Virus record (IMG/VR): IMGVR_UViG_3300036398_003678
Coordinates: 57,242 to 121,241 of that record
Direction: 5' to 3' (one strand)
Origin: a virus
DNA length: 64,000 bases
Under the pieces are notes generated by a model. That model saw only the letters and a list, made by a program, of their open reading frames with translations, ran no database searches and was not told the origin of the DNA. Both the position numbers and the translations under genes were made by a program. Every line of letters begins with the position of its first letter. Position 1 is the stretch's first letter. Positions 6,032-27,257 of this stretch are shown piece after piece.

Positions 6032-9000
6032 TTAATTACACGATGGTATGTTTAAGACCAAAGCATTGTTATATAAAATATCTAGAGAGTCTGTTTTTAA
6101 GATTTGTATTTGACAAATCTGATTATTAAAATTAGCGGCATTTGCTAACGATATATTAATAGATCCAGATAATGTCTGAGCCGGAATCGTTAAAGCAGAA
6201 GCAGATACTGTGGTGATTGGCGAGGTTCCTTGTACAATAATTCTTGCTATATATTCTTGAGCGACAGAAGAGGCCTTATTAGTTAACCAATTCAGTGTAA
6301 TTCTCGGAGCACCCCCTGAACAGCCATACTCGGTGGATGAGACGGTTACAGAAGCGGGGATAGACGACTGGGTTGGTGTTGGTGTTGGGAATATTTCACA
6401 GGGATTATCCTCAAACATGGGAGGTTCTATGTTTTCTATATCGTAATTACATAGATAATCAAAATCTGATTCTATATAACCATTATTACCGAATGTAGTA
6501 TCAGCAACAGTAAATTCTCCAGACGTGTCTTTGGATCTTCTAGCGACTCTGAAAGAATAGTTATAGTCGTTACCCCCAAAGCCAACTATATACAGCTTAT
6601 TATTATAGACTACTAGCGCAGAAATGGTCTCAGACTGTATATTTTGAGCACTAAGCCTATTCTTTCTCTGGTTTCCGAATAGATCGGTCTCTGTACCGCC
6701 CAAAAGTACAGGAGTCGTATTACCAGATGATAAATTGTATTTGGCTATAACGAATCTATAAGATTTACGGGCGTATGATGCTGTGACATCCGATATATCT
6801 TGTAGGACTTCTCTCTGCATTGGTTCTGGATCTAAACTATAAGGTATTTGATTACGACTAATAGTATCAGCAACGGTTCTAAGTGTAACGGGTCCCTTTC
6901 TCGGAATTGGGCTATTGAATTCCGTGTCTGAGATAGTATATTCGTTGTAAGCTATATTATAACCAACATACCATGATTGACCATCTTCTACAAACATTGA
7001 CGCATCATATTCTGGTAAAACCGTTACTGCTCCGCTATACGGCTGTGGTATCGCAAGTTTCCAAGATCCGTCTTTACCATTTTGATATTTGTATTTGCAT
7101 ACTCCAACCATATTACTATCAGCATATGTTATTGCTAAGTATATGCCTTCATTATTTATGAGACATGTTTTGAGCATCGGCTCTGTTTTTATCAAGGGGT
7201 CGACAATCAGATCAGAGGGTTGGATCTTAAGAGTACCATTATTATAGAAACTAGTATCAACAGAACCATTCAGATTTATGCGGGACACGACAACAACCGA
7301 AGATCCTGTTTCGTTTTTATTTTGTGCAACAACTAATAATTTTTGATCTATTACAGCAGCCCTTTTAATCTGATACTGAGTAGAAACCGATCCGGCGTCT
7401 ATGTTCACAATGCCTCCGGTACCAAACGAAGTATTGATTCGACCAGCACCAGAAATACTAGCTGCGCTATATGTATATTTTTTATTAACTATATCATAAG
7501 TTTCTAAGAACAATATAATATTATTATTTACTATTAAAGCGTCCCCTATTCCTACTATTTTTGTGTCTTCGATAGCAGATATCTCTAAAAAGCCTCTGTT
7601 TCCAAAGGTCGTGTCTATAGAACCTGTTGAAGCAAAATGTCTTGATATCACAGCGCTACCACTGGTATAGCTAACAACCAGAAACTTACCGCCTTGAGGT
7701 AGAATTTTCTTAGCGTTCACACTAACTTGAGCGCCGATATCGTTTTTAAAGGAATGGGTTGTGGACCCGGATACTCCGAACGAAATATCTAAACCGTTAT
7801 TTTTAATCTTAGATAAAGATATTTTACTTGCTACATTGGTATACGGAACACCAACACAGATCGACGATCCCGCTAATAATAAGGTATTAGCAACTATAGC
7901 TGCATCAATTGGCTTATCTATAGAAATTGGACTAGTAAGATCCGTATCTGTTACATCGCTACAGGCTACAGCAAACTTCTTCTCTTTTCTGGCATCAGAA
8001 TCAACAAAATTATTAAATCTATATGAACAGCCAGTGTCGCTAGTGGGCGTAGTGGTAGGTGCTGGGGTTGACGATGGACAAGGTGGACATGGTTTTACTG
8101 TAGAGGTGGGAGTAGGTGTTGGTACCGGAGCACAAGAGAACGAAATCTTCCATTCTGTGCTTTCGTCACACGCAGACTCCAAGATACAAACAATATATCT
8201 CGATCCCCTATTAGGTATTTTAATAGTGTCATATGTACCATAGGTATGATTTTTGCGATCTATACCCGCACAAAATAAATACTCATTATTATCGTCTTTA
8301 TCTACAGTACCAATATATCCACTATTGTATAATTCTGTACCATCAAGATCATAGAGAGACAGCTTTTCTGGGGATCCATAAAAACTATATGTTAAATTAA
8401 TCTCATAATTGTTCGTAGATAGTAAATCCACAACGAATTTATTACCGCTTAATTTTTTCTTAGTAATTATAGATGGACACAGGAATCTAGGTAAAGAACC
8501 CAAGTCTCCTACCCCTGGAATAGATAGGGCTTCTCTGGTGGGCGTGGGTGTTACAGAGGGTCCGTCTATCACCGGTATGGTGCCAGAGATTGTGAAATTA
8601 GGACAATGACAATCTGTGGAATCGCATGTAAGATTAATAGCGTATGTTCTAAGCAGCGTATTGTCTGTTAGATAAACACTATATATTAAAGGATAATTTG
8701 TTAAGCCACATACTTTATTAGATAATTGACTCTGATAGATCAAATAATTCTTACAGGTGGCGAATCCTGATGAAGAGCTATTGATAGTGCCAAAATTAGG
8801 AACCCCTTCTAGCCCAGCCGGTAAATTTAAAGCATATTTATATGTAGTATTTGGTAATAGTCCACTGATAGTGGTATATATAACTAGATCATCCGAGCCG
8901 CAAGATTCAGAGTCATTACCGAGCCTAATGCTGATTTTGGGCAAGCCTCTGGTTGGCGATGGAGTAAGTGTTGGGGTTATACTGGGTGTTACAGAAGGAG

Positions 9001-9565
9001 TAACACTAATAGTGGGCGTAACAGACGCTGTAGGAGTAGGAGTAGGGGTGTTTGATGATGTTACAGTAATTGTTGGCGTGACTGATGCTGTAACACTTGT
9101 GGTAGGGGTTGGTGTGGGTGTATTAGGAACCTGTGTACCAGTTGGAGTATTTGTTGGGGTCTTAGTGGGTGTTTGCGTTGGAGTCTTGGTTACGGTTGAG
9201 GTTGGAGTTGGAGAAGGCTTAGCTGGTGGTAGTCCTCCACAATCTATACCCAATATATCTTCTGATAGGGTCTTAATAACACCATTATCGTTAATAGTTA
9301 CGCGGGCTTTGATAACAAAGCTTTCGGAACCTTCTAAATATACTATATTGTCTATAGATTCTGATGATGCGGAGGCTATTATCTCGGTTGACGCACTAGC
9401 GAACGAGGCTGAGCCGGGACCTATGGAGCTATATTCTACTGTGTATGTATCATAAGGAATTAGATTCTCAAGCAAAATAGGTATAGAGAGTCCTACAGAG
9501 CAACAGCTCGGAGTATCAGCTTTAAGTACTATTTTATTACCGAAACTAATTTTAACGCTACTCAT
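6032..9565 (-). CDS. Tail protein: Ig-like modules, Thr-Pro linkers and a delta-60-type beta-propeller
   Basis: The product is 1177 residues. Domains in order: an Ig-like module (about 1-108; [15 protein letters not shown]), a long Thr-Pro linker (about 113-208), a second Ig-like module (about 210-325; [10 protein letters not shown]), a short linker, a beta domain with Cys pairs (about 345-475), another linker rich in Pro/Cys, then a region of about 550 residues. Within that region are delta-60-type repeats: [48 protein letters not shown] and [13 protein letters not shown]. Such repeats are known to form beta-propeller-like blades in secreted proteins. A last Thr-Pro linker leads to a C-terminal beta domain. 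The protein looks like a long string of beads, most likely a side fiber or tail-tip appendage; a binding role for the propeller is inferred. Confidence 0.7.
8936..9230 (-). repeat. Long Thr-Pro linker repeat tract
   Basis: This degenerate short-period repeat encodes (Thr-Pro)n/(Ser/Val-Thr-Pro)n between the first two Ig-like modules of the enclosing gene. On the plus strand it reads as GGNGTNGGNGT-type repeats. That makes the non-coding strand G-rich and creates long spurious antisense open frames rich in Gly-Val. Confidence 0.85.
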
Positions 9566-9580
9566 TACGAAACCTTCTTC

Positions 9581-11146
9581 TTATATATTAGTTGGCGTAG
9601 GTGTTGGGGTCGGGGTGGGCGTAGGAGTCGGAAAACACGTATCGCAATCAAAAAACAAGATTGTATCTGTTTTTATATTATCTAATAAATCTGTTACCTC
9701 TAGCTTCAAGCTAATTTTCTTAAGAGACCCACTATAACTAAATACTGTATTAATATTTTGAATATTATTACCAGCTATTATCGTTCCGCTTTTAGGCGAT
9801 ATATTAGCAAAATAATCATCAGGAGTAGAAAATAGATAAGAATATGATCTACCAATTTTAGCATTTTTAATCGAAGCAACCACACTCTTATACTGACCAC
9901 AACTCTTCATAAGTTCTTTGGAATCCGTAACAAATTCAACGTCTGGCGCAGATGGTCTGCCGCACTCTACCGTAAGAATATCTTCACCATAATTGAAGCC
10001 CACATACGGCACATTAGTAGCATCAGCGGGCATTTCATACGACCCCTTCTCCGTCTCAACACTATTGGGATCAATAGAGGTATTATATAACCAGTTGCAA
10101 TATCTTGCTCCATCTAACCAGCTCACAAAATTCACTGGCTTATTTTCCATATTGGGCTTACAAGTATAGCTAAATGTTTGATTAGTATTCGATGATCTAG
10201 TAATGCCGCCTCTAGGGTCTGTGGTCATTTTACTATTGTATAAGCCATATCTATCAGATTTCGCAGCGACGGAATTTAAAAATACCATATATTCATTATT
10301 AGTTACCGGATGCTTTTTCATATAAAAAGAATGCGGAACAGAGCCTATCCCATTATCATCCGCATCGTTCATGCCTAGAAAAGATCCTGATACCATGGAA
10401 AAAGTAGATGTATCAATACTAAGGGTTTGATTAACCTCGGCAGCAATACGAAGTCCTAAAGAACTAGACTCAAAAACCGGTTTGTTTTCAACTATTTGTC
10501 CAAGTTCAGAGATCGGACTATTCCAAGAACCACCAGTATATGGTTTAAGAGAGGTCGATATATCATCAAGCCATTCATTAATATTTCCATTTTGATCATA
10601 GGTACCATAATAACTCGGCCCGCCATTGGTACCAACGGTAGTCAAATTGCCGTCTTGACCATTCCAATCGGCTGTATTTCCAAAATTCGCAAAATTGCCC
10701 GATGCCCCAGCAGAACCGTCGCCAGAAGTATTACTGGTTACTGCAACAGGATTATTATTGCTCATAGTTGCGTATTGAGAATATTCTTCTGTATCTGCAT
10801 TATAATAAGCGCTCTTATACCATTCATTGCGATTAGGCAGCCAATACTTTGCGTCTTTTCTATAATCAAGGTCCGTAATTTTGAATTTAATAATATAAGA
10901 TCTAGACCCCTCTAAAGAAAATCCTATTGGTATATTCATAGGCTGATTTAGAGACTGTGTCATAACATAGAAATTGTTTTGAGCAAAAACAATAGAGCCT
11001 CTAGATATAGAAGATAGTTCGCAATAATATTTATGTCCGGGTATCATACCCGATACGGTAACTATGCTAGATACTCCGGTAGAACAACATCCTTCGTTAT
11101 TCACTAAAATATTTTTTTCTGCAAATTTTACAATTAAATTACTCAT
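9581..11146 (-). CDS. Tail protein with a circularly permuted SUMF1/FGE-like (C-type lectin fold) domain inserted in an Ig-like module
   Basis: The product is 521 residues from the ATG at 11146, which shares its A with the upstream stop (TAATG). Residues 1-94 are the Ig-like module (CCSTG, PGHKYYCEL, KFKITDL), whose last strand (GEDILTVECG) appears only at residues 387-396. Between them lie two halves of a SUMF1/formylglycine-generating-enzyme-like domain in swapped order. The usual C-terminal half comes first: YWLPNRNEWYKSAYY at 101-115, YYGTYDQNGNINEWLDD at 179-195, GGSW at 205-208 and SLGLRIA at 229-235. The usual N-terminal half follows: SGSFLGMN, HPVTNNEYMVFLNSV, YGLYNSKM, RGGITRS and NKPVNFVSWLDGARYCNWL at 335-353. 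A second Ig-like module (401-505) and a Thr-Pro tail finish the protein. The domain probably serves binding; catalysis is not indicated. Confidence 0.8.
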   Translation of the reverse strand: MSNLIVKFAEKNILVNNEGCCSTGVSSIVTVSGMIPGHKYYCELSSISRGSIVFAQNNFYVMTQSLNQPMNIPIGFSLEGSRSYIIKFKITDLDYRKDAKYWLPNRNEWYKSAYYNADTEEYSQYATMSNNNPVAVTSNTSGDGSAGASGNFANFGNTADWNGQDGNLTTVGTNGGPSYYGTYDQNGNINEWLDDISTSLKPYTGGSWNSPISELGQIVENKPVFESSSLGLRIAAEVNQTLSIDTSTFSMVSGSFLGMNDADDNGIGSVPHSFYMKKHPVTNNEYMVFLNSVAAKSDRYGLYNSKMTTDPRGGITRSSNTNQTFSYTCKPNMENKPVNFVSWLDGARYCNWLYNTSIDPNSVETEKGSYEMPADATNVPYVGFNYGEDILTVECGRPSAPDVEFVTDSKELMKSCGQYKSVVASIKNAKIGRSYSYLFSTPDDYFANISPKSGTIIAGNNIQNINTVFSYSGSLKKISLKLEVTDLLDNIKTDTILFFDCDTCFPTPTPTPTPTPTPTNI

Positions 11147-11961
11147 TATTCGCACCCATAGCATTGAATTAGTAATATATCTTCATCTAGTATTATATCA
11201 GGATATTTAGCATCAAATACTCTAACCTGTAAACTAACCATATTGCCTTTGGATGGATTAACGGTCACTACGGTATTTATGTTTTGTTCGGAGAAGCCTG
11301 CGGTCACAAAGCCGGTAGCCGGTGACAATAGTGGCGCCGCATCGCTAGTAAGACAAACAAAGTCGTATTTATATGTAGTTCCGATACGGGCATTTGATAT
11401 GGTGCAAATAATGTTGAGTTGTTCTCTGCACCTATTGGGAGGATTTACCATCATGACCGGACCAGCATCAAAGTTTACACGAGGCATAGATGCAGTGACA
11501 GGCCTAGCGGTTGGGGTTGGTGTAGGTACCGCTGGAATAGAAGCACAGCTAGCGGCTACCATATCAGAGGCAGCTATACCAGTATCTGTCTGATTAATGG
11601 TTGCTTTTAAAATATAATTATACTGTGGATCTACGTTAGCTACCGTGGTAAATTTTTGCGTTGGTGTCGAAGCAAAGATCGTTATAGCTGCCGGGTCAAA
11701 CACCTGTCGAGTAGATGACGGGTTCAATAATTCAAATAATATAGTATATTGTCTACCCGGTATTAAGTTAGAAGCCTCCGCTACAACGATAAAGGAGCCC
11801 TTAAGACATTGGGCATTTGGCAAAGTAATAGTTTTAGAATTTCCCTCTATACCATAATGAGAAAAATCAAACTTAACAGACAGCGAAGGTGAGGTATTTA
11901 CTGTTTCTGGCATCGGGGGCTCTTGTTGTGTGCTGGGGAATTTAATAAATAAATTAGCCAT
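11146..11961 (-). CDS. Distal-tail protein with two Ig-like modules joined by a short Thr-Pro linker
   Basis: The product is 271 residues; AGGAA lies 4-5 bases from the ATG at 11961. An N-terminal about 30-residue strand region leads to an Ig-like module (LIPGRQYTILF, MVAASCAS), then a short linker (PTPTPTARP). A second Ig-like module follows (PRVNFDAG, NRCREQLN, IGTTYKYDF, SPATGF), ending at IQCYGCE. The 88-base gap upstream contains a 7-bp AT-rich dyad (AAACTAT/ATAGTTT on the minus strand), possibly a weak terminator of the preceding gene. The function is inferred to be structural. Confidence 0.6.
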   Translation of the reverse strand: MANLFIKFPSTQQEPPMPETVNTSPSLSVKFDFSHYGIEGNSKTITLPNAQCLKGSFIVVAEASNLIPGRQYTILFELLNPSSTRQVFDPAAITIFASTPTQKFTTVANVDPQYNYILKATINQTDTGIAASDMVAASCASIPAVPTPTPTARPVTASMPRVNFDAGPVMMVNPPNRCREQLNIICTISNARIGTTYKYDFVCLTSDAAPLLSPATGFVTAGFSEQNINTVVTVNPSKGNMVSLQVRVFDAKYPDIILDEDILLIQCYGCE

Positions 11962-13801: not shown

Positions 13802-16152
13802 AGACTTACTCCGCTAAATACAATTACGCCGCCGTCTAGATCACTAATAGTATTTGTAGACTGCCATTGCGCAATATTACCAGATGTAGAAGTTAAAATA
13901 TATCCAGAAGGCACTGGTGTTTGACCTATACTAATACTGTCTGTATAAATATAGCCACTAACGCTTAAAGATGCATATCTATTTAAATTACCGGACTGTT
14001 GAACAATCTTAGGTGACGATCCATTAATAACAGTGGCGGAGACGGCCTCTAATCTATTGGACGGCTTAGCATTTACATAAATTGCTGGAGCAACTGATTC
14101 GCCATTAATCTGAAAGTCTATAGAATGCTTATTTTGATTAAAAATAGTATTGGTAAGAGGTCTGCAACTAATTGTTGTCTGAGGCGAAATAGCTGGTGCT
14201 CCGGAATTTTCTACACTAAGATTTAAATATCCTCCTTTATTTATGGAGAAAATATTACCCGTTCCAGAGATCGGTAGAATCTGATTCAATACGATATTTG
14301 TATAGCCATTACTTTCTGTAATGCTATTAATTGTTCTAAAATAATTATTGGTATTAACACTAATTTTTACCGTATCTCCAACACTAAACTCATTGCTTAA
14401 ACCGATAGCACTAATAGCTAAAACGTCTCCCCCGTTTTGTATAAAGCAAGATCTTATAGGATATTTTTCCCAAGATATATCTAAGCCCGACCATATAAAA
14501 TTATCTGCGCTTGGTTTTGACCATGCTATTCCAGATCCAGTATGCGTTAAAACAGAGCCTTGATCGGATGTGTTATTTGTATCCTTTGCTAATATCGTGT
14601 CTGCTCCTATATTCCAATTACCAATAAGAGTAGAGCTAGAAAAATCTATGTAAGATCCAGACGACTGAGAAAGTGCTGGAGCATTAATCCTGGGAGCAGT
14701 AATATTACCGCTAAAAATAGCGCCAGATAAGGACGCTTTAGTTCCAATCGAAGCTAGATCCGACTTGGTATATCCTGCGCTCTCTAAAATACCAGATTGT
14801 CCTACGCTCAGTATACTACCACTAATAGACAATGGCAATAAATGTAAAGAATCCGAAACGACTATTTTATCAGCAATCACACCGCTTGTAGATATTTGTA
14901 ATTGTCTGTTTTTATTTCTAATAGCAACCGAATCTGAATTAACGGTTAAGCTATCTAATGAGGAACCGCCATTATTTATTGATACAACAAGTTCTCCACT
15001 AGGACTAGAGGCTTGAGAAGAAATGGCTCTTGTGCGAATTTGAGAATAGTCTATCTCTGATCCAACAGAATTTTTGCCTGCTAGATGTATGCTACCAACT
15101 AATGACCCACTATCAAGAGTGGTAGAGGGCTTATGATAAAGTACAAGTTTAGGAGTGGAGCAGGAACTCCTATTCTCCAATCTTATGTTACTATCGCATC
15201 CCTGTCCAACGATGTGTAGTAATGTGGCGGGCTTTGCTCCCGACGGCAAATTTAAACCTATCTTTCCAGAAGCATCAAAAATACAATTTCTATTACCACT
15301 ACCATTAATAATAAAGTCTGTATTCTTGGATGTTTTATTAAAAATGGTTGTACCAGATCCTGATATGACTGTATCGGCGGATTGTTCCGATCCCGTACCG
15401 CCAAATAGCAGGCTATTAGAAGCGTTGCTATAATATATATTTGAGCCACCAAAAGAGGTAGAATTAACTTTGTATTGAATAGAGCCATTTGGTCCTTGTG
15501 GAGTACCCATCAAATCCGGATCTATATTTAGATTAACCTCATTTTTTAGTTCTATCCAGCCAGAACCATTCGATACCAAAGAGGTGTAGGCATTATCATA
15601 ATCTATAGTTAAAGAAGCTGAACCATCTATTAAATCTCCACTAGAAGCAATAATATGTAAATCCTTATTATTTCTATTATATGCTTTAAAATCTAGTATA
15701 AGACCGCGATTACCGGATGCTACGGGCAGAGTACCAGAAGCATGATTGGTAGATAGATCTACAACGTATGTAGACCTTACGTCTCCAATATTGAACACGC
15801 CCGTACTGGTAATTAAATTATTATACCCAAGATCCACAGAATACTGATTAGGATATACGAAAAACGTTTTTGTCCCACCGAAACTAAAAAATACTAACTC
15901 ATCATTGTTAGACGAACCAGAAACCTCTTCTCTTTCCACTATAGTGGTAGATATTACTTTGCCTATACCGGCTTCCCATTCTGTTGCACCAGTGGATAAA
16001 AGATTTTTGGCAAAATATGGTATAAAATGACCTATTAAAGAAGCGTCGAGACCAACAAACGTCGGCTCTGGTGCCTGTAAAATAAATCTTCCATTGACTA
16101 TTTCGAAAGATGCGCCAACATTATCTGGAATTTTAATATATGAATTTATCAT
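13798..16152 (-). CDS. Large beta-rich tail/fiber protein directly after the tape measure
   Basis: The product is 784 residues; its ATG overlaps the tape-measure stop by four bases. The sequence is rich in Ser, Gly, Asn and Ile with many short beta-strand-like repeats. Segments such as FDASGKIGLNLPSGAKPATLLH, here described by its key residues Gly-Lys-Ile-Gly and Leu-His, resemble phage fiber shaft motifs, and GTLPVASGNRGLILDFKAY resembles head-binding fiber regions. LTSTSGNIAQWQS near the C-terminus is also typical of fiber ends. Genes right after the tape measure usually encode distal tail or tail-tip proteins, so that role is likely. It lacks the Cys-rich Ig modules of the genes that follow. 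Confidence 0.6.
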   Translation of the reverse strand: MINSYIKIPDNVGASFEIVNGRFILQAPEPTFVGLDASLIGHFIPYFAKNLLSTGATEWEAGIGKVISTTIVEREEVSGSSNNDELVFFSFGGTKTFFVYPNQYSVDLGYNNLITSTGVFNIGDVRSTYVVDLSTNHASGTLPVASGNRGLILDFKAYNRNNKDLHIIASSGDLIDGSASLTIDYDNAYTSLVSNGSGWIELKNEVNLNIDPDLMGTPQGPNGSIQYKVNSTSFGGSNIYYSNASNSLLFGGTGSEQSADTVISGSGTTIFNKTSKNTDFIINGSGNRNCIFDASGKIGLNLPSGAKPATLLHIVGQGCDSNIRLENRSSCSTPKLVLYHKPSTTLDSGSLVGSIHLAGKNSVGSEIDYSQIRTRAISSQASSPSGELVVSINNGGSSLDSLTVNSDSVAIRNKNRQLQISTSGVIADKIVVSDSLHLLPLSISGSILSVGQSGILESAGYTKSDLASIGTKASLSGAIFSGNITAPRINAPALSQSSGSYIDFSSSTLIGNWNIGADTILAKDTNNTSDQGSVLTHTGSGIAWSKPSADNFIWSGLDISWEKYPIRSCFIQNGGDVLAISAIGLSNEFSVGDTVKISVNTNNYFRTINSITESNGYTNIVLNQILPISGTGNIFSINKGGYLNLSVENSGAPAISPQTTISCRPLTNTIFNQNKHSIDFQINGESVAPAIYVNAKPSNRLEAVSATVINGSSPKIVQQSGNLNRYASLSVSGYIYTDSISIGQTPVPSGYILTSTSGNIAQWQSTNTISDLDGGVIVFSGVSL

Positions 16153-19100
16153 ACTGATGAACTACCTTTAAGTATTTGATTAGATTGTTCCCCAAGAGCA
16201 TTCTCTGTAGTAACATTAAGCCTACTGACGGCAGTATTGATCGAAGAAACAACATATTCTTTCATTCCTTCGCTCATTCCCTTTAGTGCCTCTCCGCCAT
16301 TTATTATAACCTCTACTTTATGTTGTGCTGTAATTTGAATATTTTCTGGAATAGCCAAACCACTGATAGTATTAGCCACATTCTGTAATCTAATTGTAAA
16401 ATTATCAATAGCCTTTTGACTCTTATCATCTAAATTAATATTTAGTAATGCTGCATTTTGAGCAAAAGCGCGATTAAAATTTTCCAAAGCACTTACAGCC
16501 GATGGGGCCAAGCCCAGCTGTAAATTAGATACACCTACAGTCTTATTTGTAGACGATACATTTGGGATATTAGAGTGATATTGAGGTATAATAATACCCC
16601 CTTGATTAAGATAATTAACCATTCCACCAGTAGAATATTGGCCACTATTAATAGCTTTTAAGACAGGTAGATGTTTTTGAGTGGCCGCTCTATTGACCAC
16701 AAATTCTCCGGGGGTCAACATGGCTGGAACGGTATCGGTGCCTCTGGGCTGATAATCAACTAGAGTGCCTGTTTGAGCATAGATTATGCCCCCTCTGGCT
16801 TTCTTCTGCGGCTTTTTGACTTCCTCTGCTAAGGCTTTTCTCTTTGCTTGGAGCTGTAACGCCATATTATAATCTGGTAATTTTCCAAATGCTCCATTCG
16901 TTAATAGCTGTAAAGCAGAATTGGCGTCGGGGTATAGGCTATCAAAACCACGTCTCCATTTATCATTGCCGGCTTGACCATCACCATTCACAAAAGGATC
17001 CAAAAAAGTATTGTAGAAAGATCGAACCTTCTTGATAGTATCAATAACGCCCTGGTTAACCTTTTGATTAGCAAGCTCTTTCTCTAAAATACCAAAGAGA
17101 TTATTTCTTGTTTCCGTAGGAAACATAGAGTATGGATTCAGTATCTTTTTACCCAAATCTAATATGGTTTTGGGAGAAGTTCTATCAGATTGTTTATTCC
17201 AAGTTGTTTTCTCTAGTCCAGTAGCCTCAAAAATCGATTGGTTTTTATCCCCAAAAGCCCCCTCGATTGCCTTTTGATTGTCTTTATTTATTTCTTTATC
17301 CAAGATATCTGCCCCCAGACCCTGGGACATCATTCCTTGCTTAGCTAAAAACTTTGCGTATTGATTAACTTTGTCTGGTATTGTAGCGTCTGGTTTACCG
17401 TCAAAGCTAACGCCTAGCATCGAAGACAATCCTTGAGAATCTCCTGCTCCTAGTTTTAAAAATGTTTGTGCGGCAGCTCCTATTGCTCCCCAAACATTAT
17501 ACAACGCCTCTGGCGGAGTCCTCCCTTTCATTTTTTCCATAACAGCTTGTCCAAAAAACTTTTGCCCACCAAATAAAAGATTACCGTATGGCAATATGTC
17601 TGTCGCTTTTGTTAAGGGCATCAGCTTCATATTGTATGCCGATAAAACGCCGCTTATAGGAGCTAGTACTTTCTGTATAATGCCCCTAGCTATACCCAAC
17701 GGATTTTCTATATTTGCTTGTTTTATACCAGCATCAGTGCGTTTATCAGTAGTTTCAGCTGCCACAGCTCCTGCTATTAGTTCTTTTTTATTAAATAATC
17801 CTTTAATTTCATTAATGTAATTAGTAGCATTAAAGTTACCGCCAAGAACAGCTGTCTTTGGCATATAAGCATTATTTTTTGTGTCTTCGGAATAATCTAG
17901 CGCACCAAGATCAGTGCTATTTATTTTTTGCACAGTGGCGTAAGGCACTGGCGGCAAATTATCTGTATTGAGACCTCCTGTCACTGCATTAATTATTGGT
18001 TGAATACGCCCTTTTAAGGTTTCGATACTATCCGCATATATCGATCTACCAATTAAATTAACAGGGTCTAAATCTTTGAATGGGTTTAGCGGCTGTTCTT
18101 TGCTGTTGGCATCTAAATCAGCAACAACATATTTAATGGCTCCTAATGACTGATCTAATGTTTTATTGGTGCCAAATCCTCCTTGAATAGTTTTGTAGTT
18201 AAATTTCATGAACTCATCTTCGACGGAACCTGATGTAACTTTTATATTAGATGTATTATTTTTTTGATATTCTCCCTTTAGGTTATTGATAGCATCTACA
18301 TGATTAAATCCAGCAGCTATCCACGGTAGTGATTTTTGCGCTGGATTTATAGGTATAAAATTACTACTGTTTTCAGCATAGCTATTGGTGGGCGGCGCAG
18401 GCTGATAATTTTTAAAAGAATTAGCTAAATTATTCCATTTATCGGCCGTTAAATTAAATAATGTTATTGGTGGTTTAACATTGTCTTTACCCTTAATTTC
18501 TGTCTCATCGAATTGAGCCGAAAATATTGCACCAGATAATAGCTGTTGTAATTTGTTAATATATGTTTTATTCTTTAAGGAAGAATCGGTTTCTTTCAAT
18601 GGTTCAGAAATCGAACCGTCTGCCTCGATCTCTGGAATCTTAGTTTGAGACAAAGCATCAAATACTCTTGATAATGACTGGATATTGTTTTGCATTATCG
18701 GACCAGTAGCCTTAGCCATACCGTCATAATTAGTGACGTATTTAGATAATGCCATGCCTATAGACGGATCAACAGTATCATGCTTCATATTGGATAACCC
18801 GGCAACCACCTTCATGTCCGGAGAAATGATAGTAGTGGCTGTTGATCTATTTGTAAAACCATAAGGGTTTCCAGCATTAGTATTTTGACCAGAAGACCCT
18901 TCTCCTTCTAGATCTGCTACTGAGTATAGGCCATAAAGACCGTTAGTGGTTTTTGTTAGACCGCTCAGTGTTACTAGTGGCACACTAGACAATCCTCTAT
19001 TGACATATTTACCCACTTCAATAGTTGGCTCTATTTTAGGTCTATTATCCGCGTCTACTTTTGTGGCTATTTTTTTTGAACCTGTGTCAATAGACCCCAT

Positions 19101-22100
19101 AAACGTACCGGCATCAGAACTTTGCACAACAAATCTTTTAAGTTTTAACAGCGTTTCTAATTTATTTTTATAGTCCTCTATTTGATTTTTTGTGATATGT
19201 TTTTTTCTTTGAATATCTCTCTCAGATATTACATTATCAAAAAAATCTGATTGCGGCACATAACCCACATCTATGGGACCTGTAAAAGTAGTTCTTTTCT
19301 CAATCGTAGGTCGATCATCCTCTGTAGTCATACTAATAGTATCATAAGATGCTCCTAAACTCGCATTGGCGCCGATACTCACCAAAGGCTTCCGTCCAAC
19401 TTTAGGACTGAACCAATCTGAAATATCTCCTGGTGCCGGATTCGAGGCGTAAAAATACCCCGGCAGAGCGACGGCCTTTGTCATGTGGTCATATGGATTA
19501 GCGTTAAGAGATAATATGTCTGGATATTGTGTCGCTGTCTCTTGTTGTTGAATCCCGGCCTGCTTTTCCGCATCTTGCTTTTGATCCAATCCCCAACCTC
19601 CGCCAAATACTAAACCTCCTTGATTATAGTACTGTACTCTTCCACCATTCGAGTATCCATTGTTAATAGATTTTAAAAGAGGTAGATTTTTTTGAGTAGC
19701 AGATCTATTGACAACAAATTCTCCTGGGGTCAACATAGCCGGTACTGTATCCGTCCCCTTTGGAGCAAAATTAATTAACTGACCCGCGGAAGCATATACA
19801 ACACCTCCTCTTGCGAGCATCTCTGCCTCAGCTGCTGCTGGCTTCTTATCCTCCCTATTATTTTTAACAACAGTAATTAAATTTTTAATATTATCATTAA
19901 TATCTTGCAGTTGCCTGCTTTCAAAGTTTAATGAGACACCTCCGATAGCTGTAGCTAATTTAACAGCGGCGGTGTCAGAATTATTCTCCGCAATAAGCTG
20001 ATTCAAGGCAGCTAACTGTTCATTTGCAAATGCTTGTTCAGCTAGCGCTTCTCTATATATACCTATAGCTTCTGCCATTTGTGGATCGGCTTCTGGATTT
20101 CTTAAAGAATCTATCACTTGCTGCATCATTGGCGAAGAGTTTATGCCAGATTCTCTAAGCATAGATTCTAGAACATTGGCCTTCATACCACTCTGCTTAT
20201 CTCCGAGAAACGGCATGATCATGTTAAAAGCTTCTAGGCTGTCGCGTCTCTGGTCGGCATTGGTCCCAAAATTAGCCCGACCCTTCATATTGTTATCTAA
20301 TCTAGCCAAGGCCTGATTAAATTTATTAATTTCTGCTGGGGTGCTGGTGACCAATTTCTCAATGATGGCTACTCCAGCTTGTTGCTTCTGTTGAATCTCC
20401 GACATTTTATTTAACGCTGCACTAGCAACAGTAGTGTTTTCGCTAAGGCCTTTAAGCGCATCGTATGACTCTCTTAACGCAACACTTGTTTCCCTCAGCC
20501 TTCCCTGCATCATCATAAATTCGTCTTTACCAGAAAAACCCTTTTGAGCGGCGGCGTCGGATCTTGATTGTTGAGATTGTCTGGTCAATTCTAAATCTTG
20601 TATCTGTCTTCTAATATCTACAGCAGATGTTGGGCCTCCGGTCTGAGACGCAGTTGCAGCTCTAGTGTCAGCCACTACGCTTTGTAATGATACTGTTTTA
20701 CCTAAAACTCTATTAAGCTCATTTTGCCCAGAAACCAGGGTATCAGTAGCTCGTCTTAGCTTTTGATTACTATCAATTTGTAGATCTATCAATTGATTAG
20801 TTGTATTGGCATAATCGTTTAGTGCATTCTGCCAGTTTTCTAGAGCTCGTATCGCAGTTTCTTGAGCTCTCTTTGCACTGTCTACAACGTTTCCGAGTTG
20901 TGGAATTTTTTCTACCAATTGACTAAAATCAATTTTATCATCCCCAGATTTCCTCATATCCTGTACGGCGCTCTTTACCTCGCCAGATAATTTAGTTGAT
21001 AGGTCTGGTGGCAGCTCTAAGTCGTTTAAAGCTTTAAATATAGCTTGGTCTAATTTGATACCAACGGCCTCGTTACTTGCGGATGGATTATTTTTTAAAG
21101 TACTATTGATTGTAGATAATAACGTATCCTCAAGTCTACCAGAAACCTGTAATATCCCTTTCATTGACTTAGCTTCGCTGCCGAACATAGAAGCTGCCTG
21201 GTCTACAGCTCCCGCATTCGCATTAGCCCCATAAGCTCTACTATTTTGCAATACGTTTATACTATCTAGCTTTACAGATCCTACCCTGGCAGATCCTGAT
21301 AGTGCTGAGGTGGTGAGCTCTGCACTAGCGGTAAGCTTATCTAGCGCAAAAGCATTCGCCATAATAGACTGTTCCATATTTTGAAACATTCTCTCTAAGC
21401 TATTTTGTAAAACAATAGTAGACTTGCTAAGAGCTTCTAGATCCATCTCTTTTAGAGTTTGAGACTGAATTTCTCTGGCTTTAGCGTCTGCTACTGTCGC
21501 AATAGTACTATCTATGAGAGCTTTCTTTTTATTTTCTTCTAACGAAGTATTATTTTGTATAGTTAGAATTTGTTCTTGTAGCGCTGCGTCTGCAAGAGCT
21601 AAGCTTTTAGTGAAACCAGCAAAATCTTTGTCCGATTTGAGACCTTCAATAGAAGATCCTGATCTGATTTTACTTGTTATAAATTGTCTGGAGGCATCAG
21701 CCGCTCCGGTAAAATTCTTCGCTCTTTCTCTAGATAGTTCTGGTATATTTTGACTCATTGAAAACGCCCGGTTGGATTTAGCGTCTTCCCCACCAAACAT
21801 CTCTGTAGAACGCAAATATGCCATTATCCCTTGTTTATCCAATATTTGAGATCTTTCTGCTGCCGCTCGTTTCTCTGAGCTCGTACCATTATCGGCAGTG
21901 TCAAAAAAATTAAATAGTCCTCTTTTTACTGTTTGTGAGTCTGAGTCTGTGATAGCTTGGGCTTGTTTAGTGGCTTCTACTACATTTTTCTTGGCGTCTG
22001 TAGCAAATACGTTGTTCTTTATGTCTTTAGAGAATTTATCTAGGGACTTGGCTGCTGCCTCAAGCGTTTGCTCTAATTTATCTACCTTTAAACCTCTATT

Positions 22101-25100
22101 AAAATCATTTGCTGCATTTTCTGCGTCTGTAAATGCTTTAGCTAATCCTGCTGCTCCGGCTACTATACCAGCAGCTATGCCAACAGGACCCATAGAGGCA
22201 AGCATAGCTGCGCTACCAATAGCTGTGCTACTACCAGATATCATAGCATTGTTCTTAGCCTGCTCTGCTGTTTTTGGGTCTGCTGTCGTAAACTGATCTG
22301 CGATCATTGGTATGGCAAAGGAAAGCCCCATAGCCGCATTTCCTATTTTACTACCTATACCTCCGCCAGCCGATCCTGCCATGCTATCTCTAAAAGCCTG
22401 ACCTCGTAAACCTTGAGCCCTAGCATCTCTAGCCTGGGCCATCATATTTGCTCCTCTGCTGCCAGAAGGTATTAGTCCTCCTCCTGATCCGCCGCCAAAA
22501 CCAGCAGACTTTTGTGCGGCCGTCGCCATTTTACTAATTCCCTGAGTAATTTTTTGAAATAGCGTTGGCTGTTGTTGTGCCGCAGTGGCGCTTTGTTTAG
22601 CAAAATTAGCAATACGAATTCTAGCAGCAGCGTCATCAGCAGCGGCTTGTTGAGCAATCTGCATCTTAGCATTGATTTGCTGTACATAATTTTGTTGAGC
22701 ATTTGCCGTTAATGATTGATTAGCTCTAGCAAATACTTTGTTAGCTCTATCTTGAACCTTTTGTTTTTCTGCTGGATCGGACGCGGCATCGTATCTGTCT
22801 TTGAATCTTGCTGCTACTCTGTCTCTGAGGGAGCTTCTATCATTCGATAATTGAGTTCTCATCATTTGTTTTACTGAACCCGCTCCGCCAGCTCGTTCTC
22901 TGCCTAATACCGATTGAACGGCTTCGTTTCTAGCATTATCTATAGCGCTAGGAGTTCTGGTAACAACACCCTTTTGGCCAGGCAGCAAAGGACCATAAGC
23001 ATTAGTATCAACAGCTAATCTTGTTCTAGAAGCTCTCCTTACAACCCTATTAGCTCTTTGATTGTCTCTATATTCTTTTTCTTTTGCTTGATCAAGAACG
23101 CCTCCGGTAGTAATATCCACTCCTCTACCGGCTAACACATTCATACCTCTGTAACCAACGCTCTGAGATTGTTTTTTAAGACTCGCAGCCGTTTGTTGAG
23201 CCGCCTGAGACATAGACTCAATAGCTTTAGTTGCCTCGGCCAATGCTTTGGCAGCAGACATGCCCTGATCCATCAATTGTTTGGCTATTTGAACCCTACC
23301 CTGCCCTGACATAGCCATCTTAAGAGGAGAATCGGAACCTCTAGCAAATCTTTGTACTATTCCACCACTATGATATTTATTTAATGTATGAAGATTGCCA
23401 TATCCTATAGCTTTTGCGGATTTTCTATTAATAACATATTCCCCTTCCTGAGCCATGATGGGGACTTCTCCGCCAGAAGCCCTAGCTACTCTATTTATTC
23501 TAGGCCCTTTAGTTCTTAGTGCTTCAAGAGCGGGTAATTTGCTACCTCCTCTGGTAAATACCATATTTTGAACAGGTATACCGAATAATTGATTAATATG
23601 CTCAGCTAATCCAGGAGTTCTACTAGATTTACTAATTATAGATAAGTTTTTCGGCTGTATAACGCCCTTTTTGACTAGCTCTTGTAATTGTTTGCCAAAT
23701 TGTGTTAATCTAGCACTTTGAGCATCTTTGATTCTTGCTTGGGGGTCTCTGAAATATTTGGTTAAAACCGCTTCTTTTTGTTCTGGAGTTTTTGCGCTTG
23801 CATATGCTGCATCTCCAGTGGTTCTTTGCAAAGTCCTATCATAATCAATAGCCCCTCCTCCATTACGTATTATTTCATATAATGGAGAACCAGGTTTCAT
23901 ACCAGGCATCGGCAACATAGATCCAGGAGCGTTGGGGAGATCGTCTACTAAAGGCATGCCTCCTTTAGCCATAGCTATAAAACCACCAAGAGCTCTAGAT
24001 AATCTTTTAGTCCTTAACTTATCTCTACGACCTCTATCAAATTGTCCTTTTGTAAGTTTTCTTTTAGCCTGTTCTTTTGTTGCATCATTTGTGGCGTCTG
24101 TTAATGCTTTAGGATCTACTCCAAAAAGGTTTGCTAATTTTTTACCTAATCCCATATTAAAATCAATAGCTTTTGATTTAGGATCATATGGAGCCCCAGC
24201 AACAGCCAATCCGCTCTCAAACATCAATCCAGATAAATTGGGTAACTGTTTAGTTAAAATTTCACTAATTCTTTTTTGGTCCGTAATAGGTGTTGTTCCG
24301 GCGGCTTTGGCAATAGCTTGACCTATTTGAGCTACTATGCTTTCTGATTGAGAACGTATAATATCTTCCACTTGTGTCGCTAGATCATTTGGTAGACTGC
24401 CGGTTTGCAGGGTCGCTGGGACCCCTCGTAATCTTTGTCTTCCTGTTTTATCTTTAAGTCCCGGAGTCGTAACGGTAGAAGAGGACGTATCGCCTCGTAG
24501 TCCAACAACGGCTAATTTTCTGTTTTTAGCCCTATTGGCAATATTCTCTTCGGATGTTTTGGTGATAGTTCTTTTTTCTTGTAGATCTTTAATGATCTTT
24601 GCTCTGGTCTGTTCAGACCCCTTTGCTCTTGGATCTAGAAAACGTCTAAGCTCTATAGGAATATTGACTCCTAGCCTTTCTGCTTCCTTAAGTAAATCAG
24701 CCTTACCCATGGCCTCCAAAGGCTTAGAGGTACCTCTGGCAAATTTTTGTATAAGACCTCCAGATGCAAAAGTTGAGCCGAAAGATTTTCCTAAAACCTT
24801 TTTAACAGCTGGGAGGGTTGTACGACCACCAACCTCTCTAGGATTGGTGAGCGCCTGGTACTGCATTAATTCATCCCACAAACTACCGACCTGAGTATTA
24901 ATTTTAGATAAATATGGTTTAATATTCTTTTCCAGAATAAAGTCTAATTCTGAGTCTGATCTTAGAGTCTGAGGTACAGATCTAGACTTAACACCTCTCA
25001 ACAAGGCCGTCTTAAGACCCTCAAGCTTTTTTGATGCAAGCAACTCTTTGAATATAACAGATGGTACGCCTCCATCGCCAAAAAGTTGTTCGGGGGATCT

Positions 25101-27257
25101 TTTTGAGATGTCTTCGACTAACTCTTTTTTAGTAACTCCAGTTTTTCCTGTCTTTCTTCTAAGTCTCTGATTTATTAACGTAGATATATTGGGTTCAAAA
25201 TTAATTTGTCTTTCTGTTTTACCACTCACCACCTTTAGTGAACCGGTGCCTCTTTTTTTCGCTGCCATCGCCTCTCGATAACTAAGAGGAACTTTTGGTC
25301 CTATGTGAGTTCTTTGCGTCTCCTTGAGACCGGAAGAAGATCCTCCGCGGAATCTTTGCACAGAACCGCCGTATTGATAACCCGAAGACCCTAAAATACC
25401 TTCTGGTCCACCGAGTGCTTCCGTAGCCTTTTTTCTTATAACAAAACTACCTTCTGGAAGAGTAGTATAAAAACTATCGGTATTGCCAGATCCTGGAACC
25501 AATCCAACCTTACCTCCTTTGGCCATAGGTTTTCTGTCTGCATAATTCATTTTTCTTAATTTAGATACGCCTACTTCTTTAACCGCTTCAGGATATACCA
25601 CGGCCTCTCCCGGCATCAAAGCAACTGGAACATCTACTGGTCCTCCTTTTTTATATCTACTTATATAACCCCCATAAGCATTTCTTCTAGGAGCAGCTGC
25701 TCCCCCAGCGTTGCCTCTACGAAGACCTCCTATAAAACCAGAACCATATTGAGTCGCTACACTAGCTCCTCTAACGGCCATCATCAATCCAAGAATAGGC
25801 AAAACTCCTTTAACGCTATCCGCTACTTGAATCAAACCACTAGCGAGCTGCAGCGCTCCCTTTGCCAGTGTCTGAAAAGTATCTGAGCCACCAATATCTC
25901 TTACAAGAGCAGTAAATTCTTCTCTTACTTTGGCTATCTGATTAGCCAGGGACAACTGGGCTGTTGCCGCGTCTGCCGCCAAAGACCCCTGCCCAGTCTG
26001 TGCTACCTTCAAAGCTTCCTGGGCTGTTCCGAATTGCTGAATTAATGGAATAACCTTACCGATCTGACGGAAGCCGCCAAGCTCCTCAACAATCTGAGAA
26101 AACTTTAAATCTCTCGGATCTATTTGATTTAATCCTCTAGACAATAACTCAACAGCCTTATATGCTCCAACGAACTTGCCCTCTGCATCGGTTAGATTAA
26201 CCCCGAATTCTTTCAGAGCCTCTATAGTTCCTCCTCTTTGAACTCTAGTAAAAATAGTACGTAAACCAGTAGCAATAGTTTCTGCGCTTTCACGAGTAGT
26301 GGCTCGTATACTAGTAAATACCGCTATAAACTCATTAAGAGCATCGGTACCCTGACTAACTCCATTACTAGCAGAAGCGAACACTCCACCAGTACGCTGA
26401 ATAGCGGCTATAATATCGCTGGCTTCTACTGCGAATCTGGCAGCAACCGAGTTAACAGAGCCTAGCGCTTTTTCTAGATCAGACGCTCCAATGCCGAACT
26501 GTCTCATCAAAGCAATAGAGCCTTCCACCGTTTTATTCATATCATCAAAAGACGGAGCTAAAGCACTAAGAGCCAATGCTTTTAATGCTCTCTCGGTATC
26601 TTTGGCGCTTAAACCGGCCTGGGCTAATGTTGATGATACTTTGATAAGGTCTCCTGATGCTACTCCAAAATCAACAGATAATGACGTAATAGTATTCGAT
26701 AGTCTCTTAAGACCATCTGCAGATTCGCCTGTAACCTGTTGCAGCTTAACGAATTCTTTATCAAACTCGATAAATGCGGCTATGCCTTTATTGATGGCTC
26801 CTGTAAAAGAAAATACGGCGCCGGTGGCTAAGCTAAATGCAGCAAATCTTCTAATAGCTAAGGCCGACTGTCTTCCGAACTCTTCCATTTCTGTTCTAGC
26901 AACATTTAACTGTCTGGCCGCTGTGGTGCTAGTAGCTCCGACTCTTTGTGTAGCGGTAACGACATTATTGAGCTGTCTTGGTAAATTAGCCACTCCGGCA
27001 TTACCGACCGCCTGAGAAAAATCTCTAATAGCATTTGCAGCATTTCTGGCCGCTGTCTGAGTAGTGCCAAAAGTATTGTTAAGATTTCTTAAAGCAGCAT
27101 TGAGCTGAGTAACATTGCGTGAGGCATTTTGGTCCAATCGTAAGTTCACATCTGCGGAAATTGACCCCAATTGTCTTCTAATATCAGATACAATATTTCT
27201 AACATTAGATGGTCCTCTTAAATTTAGCTGGGCTGTTAAATTAAACGATTGTGACAT
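16149..27257 (-). CDS. Giant tape measure protein (TP901-type) with embedded HAD-like segment
   Basis: The product is 3702 residues. It sets tail length and is carried inside the tail tube. The N-terminal about 480 residues contain Gln/Asn/Ala-rich coiled coil, then the PhageMin/TP901 tape-measure core (AIRRFAAFSLATGAVFSF, FDKEFVKLQQVTGES, AQAGLSAKDTERALKALAL, ELGGFRQIGKVIPL). Five dispersed copies of a Gly-rich motif with a PGEFVVNR-type core lie near residues 546, 598, 1270, 2508 and 3513. Residues about 1130-1250 look HAD-like (DYDRT at 1138-1142, SIISKSSR, GSKLPALEAL). A hydrophobic helix pair lies at about 1665-1710. A Shine-Dalgarno is not evident at the ATG at 27257, and a terminator precedes it. 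At 0.15 nm per helical residue the length would correspond to about 555 nm if fully helical, which overestimates because of the globular parts. Confidence 0.95.
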   Translation of the reverse strand: MSQSFNLTAQLNLRGPSNVRNIVSDIRRQLGSISADVNLRLDQNASRNVTQLNAALRNLNNTFGTTQTAARNAANAIRDFSQAVGNAGVANLPRQLNNVVTATQRVGATSTTAARQLNVARTEMEEFGRQSALAIRRFAAFSLATGAVFSFTGAINKGIAAFIEFDKEFVKLQQVTGESADGLKRLSNTITSLSVDFGVASGDLIKVSSTLAQAGLSAKDTERALKALALSALAPSFDDMNKTVEGSIALMRQFGIGASDLEKALGSVNSVAARFAVEASDIIAAIQRTGGVFASASNGVSQGTDALNEFIAVFTSIRATTRESAETIATGLRTIFTRVQRGGTIEALKEFGVNLTDAEGKFVGAYKAVELLSRGLNQIDPRDLKFSQIVEELGGFRQIGKVIPLIQQFGTAQEALKVAQTGQGSLAADAATAQLSLANQIAKVREEFTALVRDIGGSDTFQTLAKGALQLASGLIQVADSVKGVLPILGLMMAVRGASVATQYGSGFIGGLRRGNAGGAAAPRRNAYGGYISRYKKGGPVDVPVALMPGEAVVYPEAVKEVGVSKLRKMNYADRKPMAKGGKVGLVPGSGNTDSFYTTLPEGSFVIRKKATEALGGPEGILGSSGYQYGGSVQRFRGGSSSGLKETQRTHIGPKVPLSYREAMAAKKRGTGSLKVVSGKTERQINFEPNISTLINQRLRRKTGKTGVTKKELVEDISKRSPEQLFGDGGVPSVIFKELLASKKLEGLKTALLRGVKSRSVPQTLRSDSELDFILEKNIKPYLSKINTQVGSLWDELMQYQALTNPREVGGRTTLPAVKKVLGKSFGSTFASGGLIQKFARGTSKPLEAMGKADLLKEAERLGVNIPIELRRFLDPRAKGSEQTRAKIIKDLQEKRTITKTSEENIANRAKNRKLAVVGLRGDTSSSTVTTPGLKDKTGRQRLRGVPATLQTGSLPNDLATQVEDIIRSQSESIVAQIGQAIAKAAGTTPITDQKRISEILTKQLPNLSGLMFESGLAVAGAPYDPKSKAIDFNMGLGKKLANLFGVDPKALTDATNDATKEQAKRKLTKGQFDRGRRDKLRTKRLSRALGGFIAMAKGGMPLVDDLPNAPGSMLPMPGMKPGSPLYEIIRNGGGAIDYDRTLQRTTGDAAYASAKTPEQKEAVLTKYFRDPQARIKDAQSARLTQFGKQLQELVKKGVIQPKNLSIISKSSRTPGLAEHINQLFGIPVQNMVFTRGGSKLPALEALRTKGPRINRVARASGGEVPIMAQEGEYVINRKSAKAIGYGNLHTLNKYHSGGIVQRFARGSDSPLKMAMSGQGRVQIAKQLMDQGMSAAKALAEATKAIESMSQAAQQTAASLKKQSQSVGYRGMNVLAGRGVDITTGGVLDQAKEKEYRDNQRANRVVRRASRTRLAVDTNAYGPLLPGQKGVVTRTPSAIDNARNEAVQSVLGRERAGGAGSVKQMMRTQLSNDRSSLRDRVAARFKDRYDAASDPAEKQKVQDRANKVFARANQSLTANAQQNYVQQINAKMQIAQQAAADDAAARIRIANFAKQSATAAQQQPTLFQKITQGISKMATAAQKSAGFGGGSGGGLIPSGSRGANMMAQARDARAQGLRGQAFRDSMAGSAGGGIGSKIGNAAMGLSFAIPMIADQFTTADPKTAEQAKNNAMISGSSTAIGSAAMLASMGPVGIAAGIVAGAAGLAKAFTDAENAANDFNRGLKVDKLEQTLEAAAKSLDKFSKDIKNNVFATDAKKNVVEATKQAQAITDSDSQTVKRGLFNFFDTADNGTSSEKRAAAERSQILDKQGIMAYLRSTEMFGGEDAKSNRAFSMSQNIPELSRERAKNFTGAADASRQFITSKIRSGSSIEGLKSDKDFAGFTKSLALADAALQEQILTIQNNTSLEENKKKALIDSTIATVADAKAREIQSQTLKEMDLEALSKSTIVLQNSLERMFQNMEQSIMANAFALDKLTASAELTTSALSGSARVGSVKLDSINVLQNSRAYGANANAGAVDQAASMFGSEAKSMKGILQVSGRLEDTLLSTINSTLKNNPSASNEAVGIKLDQAIFKALNDLELPPDLSTKLSGEVKSAVQDMRKSGDDKIDFSQLVEKIPQLGNVVDSAKRAQETAIRALENWQNALNDYANTTNQLIDLQIDSNQKLRRATDTLVSGQNELNRVLGKTVSLQSVVADTRAATASQTGGPTSAVDIRRQIQDLELTRQSQQSRSDAAAQKGFSGKDEFMMMQGRLRETSVALRESYDALKGLSENTTVASAALNKMSEIQQKQQAGVAIIEKLVTSTPAEINKFNQALARLDNNMKGRANFGTNADQRRDSLEAFNMIMPFLGDKQSGMKANVLESMLRESGINSSPMMQQVIDSLRNPEADPQMAEAIGIYREALAEQAFANEQLAALNQLIAENNSDTAAVKLATAIGGVSLNFESRQLQDINDNIKNLITVVKNNREDKKPAAAEAEMLARGGVVYASAGQLINFAPKGTDTVPAMLTPGEFVVNRSATQKNLPLLKSINNGYSNGGRVQYYNQGGLVFGGGWGLDQKQDAEKQAGIQQQETATQYPDILSLNANPYDHMTKAVALPGYFYASNPAPGDISDWFSPKVGRKPLVSIGANASLGASYDTISMTTEDDRPTIEKRTTFTGPIDVGYVPQSDFFDNVISERDIQRKKHITKNQIEDYKNKLETLLKLKRFVVQSSDAGTFMGSIDTGSKKIATKVDADNRPKIEPTIEVGKYVNRGLSSVPLVTLSGLTKTTNGLYGLYSVADLEGEGSSGQNTNAGNPYGFTNRSTATTIISPDMKVVAGLSNMKHDTVDPSIGMALSKYVTNYDGMAKATGPIMQNNIQSLSRVFDALSQTKIPEIEADGSISEPLKETDSSLKNKTYINKLQQLLSGAIFSAQFDETEIKGKDNVKPPITLFNLTADKWNNLANSFKNYQPAPPTNSYAENSSNFIPINPAQKSLPWIAAGFNHVDAINNLKGEYQKNNTSNIKVTSGSVEDEFMKFNYKTIQGGFGTNKTLDQSLGAIKYVVADLDANSKEQPLNPFKDLDPVNLIGRSIYADSIETLKGRIQPIINAVTGGLNTDNLPPVPYATVQKINSTDLGALDYSEDTKNNAYMPKTAVLGGNFNATNYINEIKGLFNKKELIAGAVAAETTDKRTDAGIKQANIENPLGIARGIIQKVLAPISGVLSAYNMKLMPLTKATDILPYGNLLFGGQKFFGQAVMEKMKGRTPPEALYNVWGAIGAAAQTFLKLGAGDSQGLSSMLGVSFDGKPDATIPDKVNQYAKFLAKQGMMSQGLGADILDKEINKDNQKAIEGAFGDKNQSIFEATGLEKTTWNKQSDRTSPKTILDLGKKILNPYSMFPTETRNNLFGILEKELANQKVNQGVIDTIKKVRSFYNTFLDPFVNGDGQAGNDKWRRGFDSLYPDANSALQLLTNGAFGKLPDYNMALQLQAKRKALAEEVKKPQKKARGGIIYAQTGTLVDYQPRGTDTVPAMLTPGEFVVNRAATQKHLPVLKAINSGQYSTGGMVNYLNQGGIIIPQYHSNIPNVSSTNKTVGVSNLQLGLAPSAVSALENFNRAFAQNAALLNINLDDKSQKAIDNFTIRLQNVANTISGLAIPENIQITAQHKVEVIINGGEALKGMSEGMKEYVVSSINTAVSRLNVTTENALGEQSNQILKGSSSV

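Follow-up and report, generated by a model that had tools for sequence, protein, structure and literature searches.

A circularly permuted SUMF1/FGE domain in a phage protein, with relatives opened at other sites

The window considered here, a stretch of 64,000 nucleotides covering positions 57242-121241 of a 121,241-base IMG/VR virus record (IMGVR_UViG_3300036398_003678), contains a gene, P0001, in which motifs of the SUMF1/FGE fold appear in rotated order. This raises the question of whether P0001 carries one rearranged domain or pieces of several, and of what such a domain would do in a phage protein. Residues 103-388 of P0001 were found to comprise one SUMF1/FGE domain (Pfam PF03781) with its segments ordered B-C-A, as opposed to the canonical A-B-C, where A is the N-terminal half of the domain, B the segment with the LPNRNEWYK motif and C the segment with the YGTYDQNGN, GGSW and LGLR motifs. 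It is quite probable that this region corresponds to a single circularly permuted, non-enzymatic SUMF1/FGE-type C-type-lectin-like domain, displayed on a virion protein as a ligand-binding module. The relevant parts of P0001 are, in window positions:

9581..11164, minus strand: P0001 gene, 527 amino acids
10709..10858, minus strand: segment B of the SUMF1/FGE domain, residues 103-152, KDAKYWLPNRNEWYKSAYY..GDGSAGA (segment hidden Markov model (HMM) matches, tblastn)
10427..10708, minus strand: segment C, residues 153-246, GNFANFG..YGTYDQNGNINEW..GGSW..LGLRIAAEVN (Pfam pieces, segment HMMs)
10460..10522, minus strand: GGSW-to-LGLR stretch, presumed positional counterpart of the variable region of retroelement targets (PMC6328139)
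10397..10435, minus strand: fused C-A junction, residues 244-256, where the ancestral C- and N-termini are joined
10001..10426, minus strand: segment A, the ancestral N-terminal half, residues 247-388, ..HPVTNNEYMVFLNSV..NKPVNFVSWLDGARYCNWL.. (Pfam pieces, segment HMMs)

The Pfam profile matched P0001 in two pieces of reversed order, with profile positions 112-208 aligning to the N-terminal piece (record positions 67761-68081; E 5.6e-6) and profile positions 34-109 to the C-terminal piece (record positions 67326-67580; E 3.9e-10). The score of 47.7 bits, as compared to a gathering score of 23.3, places the protein in the SUMF1/FGE-sulfatase superfamily, with the usual succession of N-half and C-half being inverted. 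When the window domain was rotated in silico, the two Pfam pieces merged into one continuous match and the score rose from 49.6 to 62.5 bits; rotation likewise raised the Pfam scores of two viral relatives, L101 (58.2 to 74.1 bits) and L007 (71.6 to 82.2 bits). The individual segments of P0001 are 36-53% identical to bacterial SUMF1-like proteins of the opposite order, a level above chance. With a single copy of each segment, a rotated order and fused native termini, the P0001 domain is a circular permutation of the SUMF1/FGE domain. This is what the original prediction had claimed for positions 9995-10864 (residues 101-390): the motif order is as it described, the swapped-halves Pfam search it proposed gave a single, higher-scoring match, and comparison of the segments supports its placement of the break just before the LPxxxEW motif.

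The same prediction held that the idea would fall if the halves formed separate domains or derived from two tandem copies. Tandem copies of the SUMF1 domain do exist in bacteria and in viral contigs, and one viral protein, L006, comprises a C-A-B unit followed by an A-B-C unit. Nonetheless, segments A, B and C each occur just once per unit in the window protein, L101, L206 and the majority of C-A-B proteins, the C-A and A-B (or B-C) spacing is tight with long linkers lying outside the unit, the rotated sequence yields one continuous Pfam match, and a C-A-B relative is predicted to fold as one domain. Two degenerate tandem SUMF1 copies each lacking one half, or separate half-domains mimicking a permutation, are thus largely refuted and highly improbable.

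The structural prediction just mentioned, an AlphaFold2 (AF2) model of a C-A-B copy based on 50 sequences, showed a single closed domain with a pLDDT of 96.5 and a pTM of 0.94; that the permutant folds is thus a matter of prediction. When this model was compared to the PDB using Foldseek, no match below E 0.001 was obtained, the best being TvpA and FGEs with TM-scores of at most 0.24, and a structure search of BFVD returned nothing, most simply because a sequential aligner is confronted with a permuted order. That so confident a model can lack a significant PDB or BFVD match implies that permuted phage adhesins may be widely overlooked. In the window model, residues ~103-383 were mostly predicted with a pLDDT of 77-94, falling to 52-71 around residues 141-180 and near the domain end. 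Here, the best PDB match was TvpA (2y3c; E 8e-4, probability 1.00), followed by CarF and FGEs, in each case over only the sequential part of the domain, and sequence-profile searches of the PDB matched FGE and SUMF2 chains in permuted order. Hence, parts of the P0001 domain resemble CarF (5aoh), SUMF2 (1y4j) and bacterial and human FGE structures in sequence and fold, yet these structures are all of canonical order, and the FGEs contain catalytic cysteines absent here. Phage fibres are often trimeric, and this general property would suit a domain-swapped oligomer in which segments B-C of one chain complete segment A of a neighbour, such that the chain would be adapted to swapping rather than closed as a monomer. 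Against this stand the confident monomer model and a C-A gap of 0-9 residues in nearly all copies, making such an arrangement quite unlikely relative to a closed, permuted monomer.

To place P0001 among viral sequences, six scans of viral contigs were performed, yielding several hundred loci, many overlapping, that were classified using segment HMMs on six-frame open reading frames; as the scans favour query-like sequences, census counts are not frequencies. C-A-B was by far the commonest order (84 rows after removal of copies at least 85% identical). B-C-A was found in the window type, L101 and L206, the last being a single 747-residue protein containing both a B-C-A and a C-A-B unit. A third opening, inside segment B (B2-C-A-B1), was seen in L208, L209 and L210, where the domain starts with MYATQSD or MYATRSN and ends with YWIPSEDEWYKAAYYLPTV. 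As such, P0001 belongs to a widespread phage family in which the domain is opened at no fewer than three sites. Within C-A-B units, fewer than 15 residues mostly lie between C and A and between A and B, whereas 40-800 residues of linker separate B from the next C (with a rare shorter case in L073). Because the inner gaps are short and the outer linkers long, the permuted units are complete domains rather than tandem arrays read in a shifted phase. The permuted forms, moreover, share a short C-A junction, typically GFRxAS..NPLSLxNFVxVGD.

Several other arrangements were also noted. L179 and L186 contain an insertion of ~250 residues between C and A, that is, at the fused junction. In L006 (38-4402), a 1454-residue protein, the C-A-B unit leads directly into a canonical A-B-C unit belonging to another phage subfamily, as is also the case in L125 and L128. 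Viral contigs with tandem canonical A-B-C-A-B-C arrays of a divergent subfamily, joined by short linkers, were found at L115-L121, L219, L262 and L270-L278; these arrays are possible precursors of the fused junction. Most 'viral' A-B-C matches were rejected as phage evidence, since they bear signal peptides and PEP-CTERM tails and lie on short contigs that are probably host DNA. L150 (IMGVR_UViG_3300043438_003422, 6.2 kb) and similar short contigs encode several consecutive PEP-CTERM SUMF1 proteins with signal peptides and, despite being classed as viral, are probably host DNA in the viral collection. Finally, tblastn searches with P0001, one C-A-B domain and one B-C-A domain gave no match in 50,697 cultured-phage records.

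Among cellular organisms, the nearest relatives belong to the Planctomycetota and Verrucomicrobiota, in line with the kinship earlier guessed from the sequence alone. Every complete bacterial unit recovered was A-B-C. When 294 Planctomycetota and 289 Verrucomicrobiota genomes were searched (E <= 1e-60, with up to eight candidates per genome scored), no single-run C-A-B match was obtained, each match spanning the A-B part of the C-A-B profile. With the scoring limited to this number of candidates, bacteria may still contain rare permuted copies. L204, a bacterial protein, consists of a plain A-B-C-A-B-C tandem. P0001 resembles the PEP-CTERM-tagged SUMF1-like proteins of these phyla in containing all the motifs of PF03781, at the per-segment identity given above, but differs from them in its rotated order, in having neither a signal peptide nor a PEP-CTERM tag and in being embedded in a phage protein.

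The relation between the permuted and canonical forms was addressed in trees built on segments restored to canonical order. In a tree of 133 rows, a single branch (SH-aLRT 87) separated the A-B-C rows from all others, with the B-C-A and B2-C-A-B1 forms falling among the C-A-B rows; in an earlier tree of 129 rows, one C-A-B row (L110) lay on the other side of the split. The simplest account would be one end-to-end fusion followed by reopening at other loops. The fusion would probably have proceeded by tandem duplication and trimming, which is a general model for natural circular permutation. In this scheme, a host-type A-B-C domain would have been duplicated in tandem and then trimmed, such that the ancestral N- and C-ends became joined by a short turn. 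In P0001, the chain is open at the loop preceding the LPxxEW helix and is inserted in the final hairpin of an immunoglobulin-like (Ig-like) module; in related phages, the same fused domain is opened at two other loops within the same ~55-residue stretch. Plausible intermediates exist, given the tandem A-B-C arrays (L204 and L115-L121) and the mixed C-A-B-A-B-C protein L006. A separate derivation of C-A-B, B-C-A and B2-C-A-B1 from A-B-C would be favoured by the weak support of the deep branches. However, all permuted forms have the same short C-A junction, with NPLSLxNF being found both in C-A-B copies and in the B-C-A domain of L101, and the A-B-C rows lie on one side of one branch in the larger tree. 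Independent permutations are, as such, rather unlikely, and a single fusion is preferred.

Natural circular permutation and the SUMF1/FGE fold are each already known, and the rearrangement seen here is of the same type as in other protein families. What sets it apart from those families is the occurrence, among related phages, of three different openings in one fused domain. A survey of the open-access literature found nothing relevant on circular permutation of FGE, SUMF or phage lectin domains, and no description of a SUMF1/FGE domain that is permuted, whether with a single opening or with several among phages of one group. The natural set of A-B-C, C-A-B, B-C-A and B2-C-A-B1 forms, at roughly 40-75% identity, makes the origin of permutation and the tolerance to it testable within one family.

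In many C-A-B copies, cysteines are found at the new chain ends. A cysteine just after the new N-end (NxxCADW) was present in 40 of 84 copies and one near the new C-end (TCVxA) in 51 of 84. Both sides of the cut contained a cysteine in 39 copies, one side only in 13 and neither in 32 (Fisher 4.5e-12); in A-B-C copies, the same two positions were cysteine in 0/43 and 1/43 cases, respectively. A tail cysteine was also considered as the partner of the N-terminal cysteine but was rejected (Fisher p 0.83), the partner being the cysteine in segment B. On the tree, the N-end cysteine trait underwent at least 13 changes. A tree-aware pair test was not significant, being underpowered with 3 independent pairs, although changes were nearly always in the same direction. 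From this pattern of residues, it is a good hypothesis that a disulfide would close the C-A-B opening.

The Pfam label, being that of an enzyme family, could be taken to mean that P0001 encodes an active FGE- or EgtB-like enzyme carried for metabolism or protein modification, and an auxiliary metabolic role has been proposed for a SUMF1/EgtB/PvdO gene of a halovirus (PMC9769972). The catalytic, copper-binding cysteine pair of FGE (GGSxxC..C) is, however, absent from all 129 rows, and the proteins that host the domain are multi-domain, linker-rich and of virion type, often with several copies each. An enzymatic role is thus very unlikely, and display on the virion as a ligand-binding module is the most likely function.

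Folds of the FGE-type C-type lectin are also targets of diversity-generating retroelements (PMC6328139), and a link of this kind had been raised for P0001. By position, the GGxW..GFR stretch would be equivalent to the region that varies, and putatively binds ligand, in retroelement targets with the same fold (PMC6328139). No other 25-residue window of the C-A-B alignment is as variable (rank 1 of 268), and differences between close C-A-B pairs are 2.2 times more frequent there than elsewhere. TvpA as the top structural match and an Mtd_N domain elsewhere in the window also speak for such a link. The link is only structural, however, with no RVT_1 match to a reverse transcriptase being found in the 121-kb record, which is possibly incomplete, and with bacterial-type A-B-C copies being similarly variable in the same stretch. 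That the P0001 domain is the target of such an element is accordingly extremely unlikely. Compared with the retroelement variable proteins TvpA (2y3c), TaqVP and Mtd, P0001 shares the fold subtype and a hypervariable GGxW..GFR region, but those proteins are not permuted and have a C-terminal variable stretch, whereas that of P0001 lies mid-chain.

Returning to display on the virion, a changed attachment point would be expected to reorient the variable face relative to the stalk. It is about an even chance that this is a fold with movable ends, namely, that large uncultured phages fused the SUMF1/FGE termini and reopened the domain in at least three loops so as to set how the variable face is presented on fibres, with some of the openings stapled by cysteines. 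Several points weigh against the permuted binding module and the origin proposed for it above. Support for a C-A fusion that took place once is only moderate, with the same split receiving a value of 52 in a reduced tree, as compared to 87, and for B-C-A, one origin and two origins were both compatible with the data (AU p 0.64, reduced tree). The similar variability of GGxW..GFR in A-B-C rows makes this variability a family trait, not one special to the permuted form. Lastly, the window model is not reliable in its Ig part, where the pLDDT lies below 50, this part having been folded without relatives because neighbouring Ig modules had misaligned as alignment rows.

The surroundings of the permuted domain in P0001 and the start of the next gene are as follows:

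10862..11146, minus strand: residues 7-101, the Ig-like module up to and including strand KFKITDLD, aligning with the Ig of the next gene
11146, minus strand: possible true start of P0001 at codon 7, where MSNLIVKF matches MSSVKISF of the next gene
9959..9982, minus strand: DILTVECG, the last strand, with which the Ig-like module continues past the insert (alignment with the next gene)
9629..9952, minus strand: second Ig-like module of P0001, then a (TP)n tail (sequence reading)
9230..9565, minus strand: intact Ig-like module with which the next gene begins, with a short loop at the position of the P0001 insert (alignment)

When P0001 without the insert was aligned to the first 112 residues of the next gene product, a local score of 139 was obtained (best shuffled score 62; Z 20.7), with the alignment extending through the last strand, where EDILTVECG lies opposite EDILGIDCG. 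The insert thus replaces the loop between the last two Ig strands, and the permuted domain is nested in the Ig-like module, as had been predicted. In most relatives, the permuted domain is instead flanked by Thr/Pro-rich or Ser-rich linkers, such that Ig nesting is a property of the window protein. Most permuted copies lie between Thr/Pro-rich linkers without an Ig hairpin, and so the further suggestion that insertion into the Ig module explains the permutation was not upheld. The product of the next gene (6032-9565, minus strand) is 1177 residues long and combines Ig-like modules with PT-rich linkers; it also weakly matches the DUF5122 beta-propeller.

P0001 is found downstream of a 3702-residue tape-measure gene (16149-27257), among genes for fibre-like and lectin-like proteins, a tail-gene location as befits a phage virion protein. 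Two further IMG/VR contigs, L003 and L004, are 100% identical to the window over 5 kb that include the same gene. The P0001 arrangement is, as such, not an assembly accident of a single record, although these contigs and the window may come from the same virus population. The L003 contig also carries a major capsid protein sharing 86% identity with its counterpart in the L210 phage, and this capsid gene is common to 10 of 20 checked records. Among cultured phages, the shared capsid protein matched only the major head protein of Bacillus phage G, at 22% identity. L210 (207-1229) and records G298-G311 are large uncultured phages, with contigs of up to 244 kb, that share this capsid protein.

Elsewhere in the window, the Mtd_N domain noted above, i.e., the N-terminal domain of the Bordetella phage tropism determinant, is encoded together with tail-fibre PHROG matches at 57996-59372 (minus strand), and a 1156-residue protein with DUF285 repeats and an fn3 domain is encoded at 60195-63665 (minus strand). 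Adhesin-like sequences, comprising a P_proprotein domain, a lectin-like Laminin_G_3 domain and a collagen-like tail fibre, are encoded at 34030-34947, 37850-38644 and 41528-43231 (minus strand).
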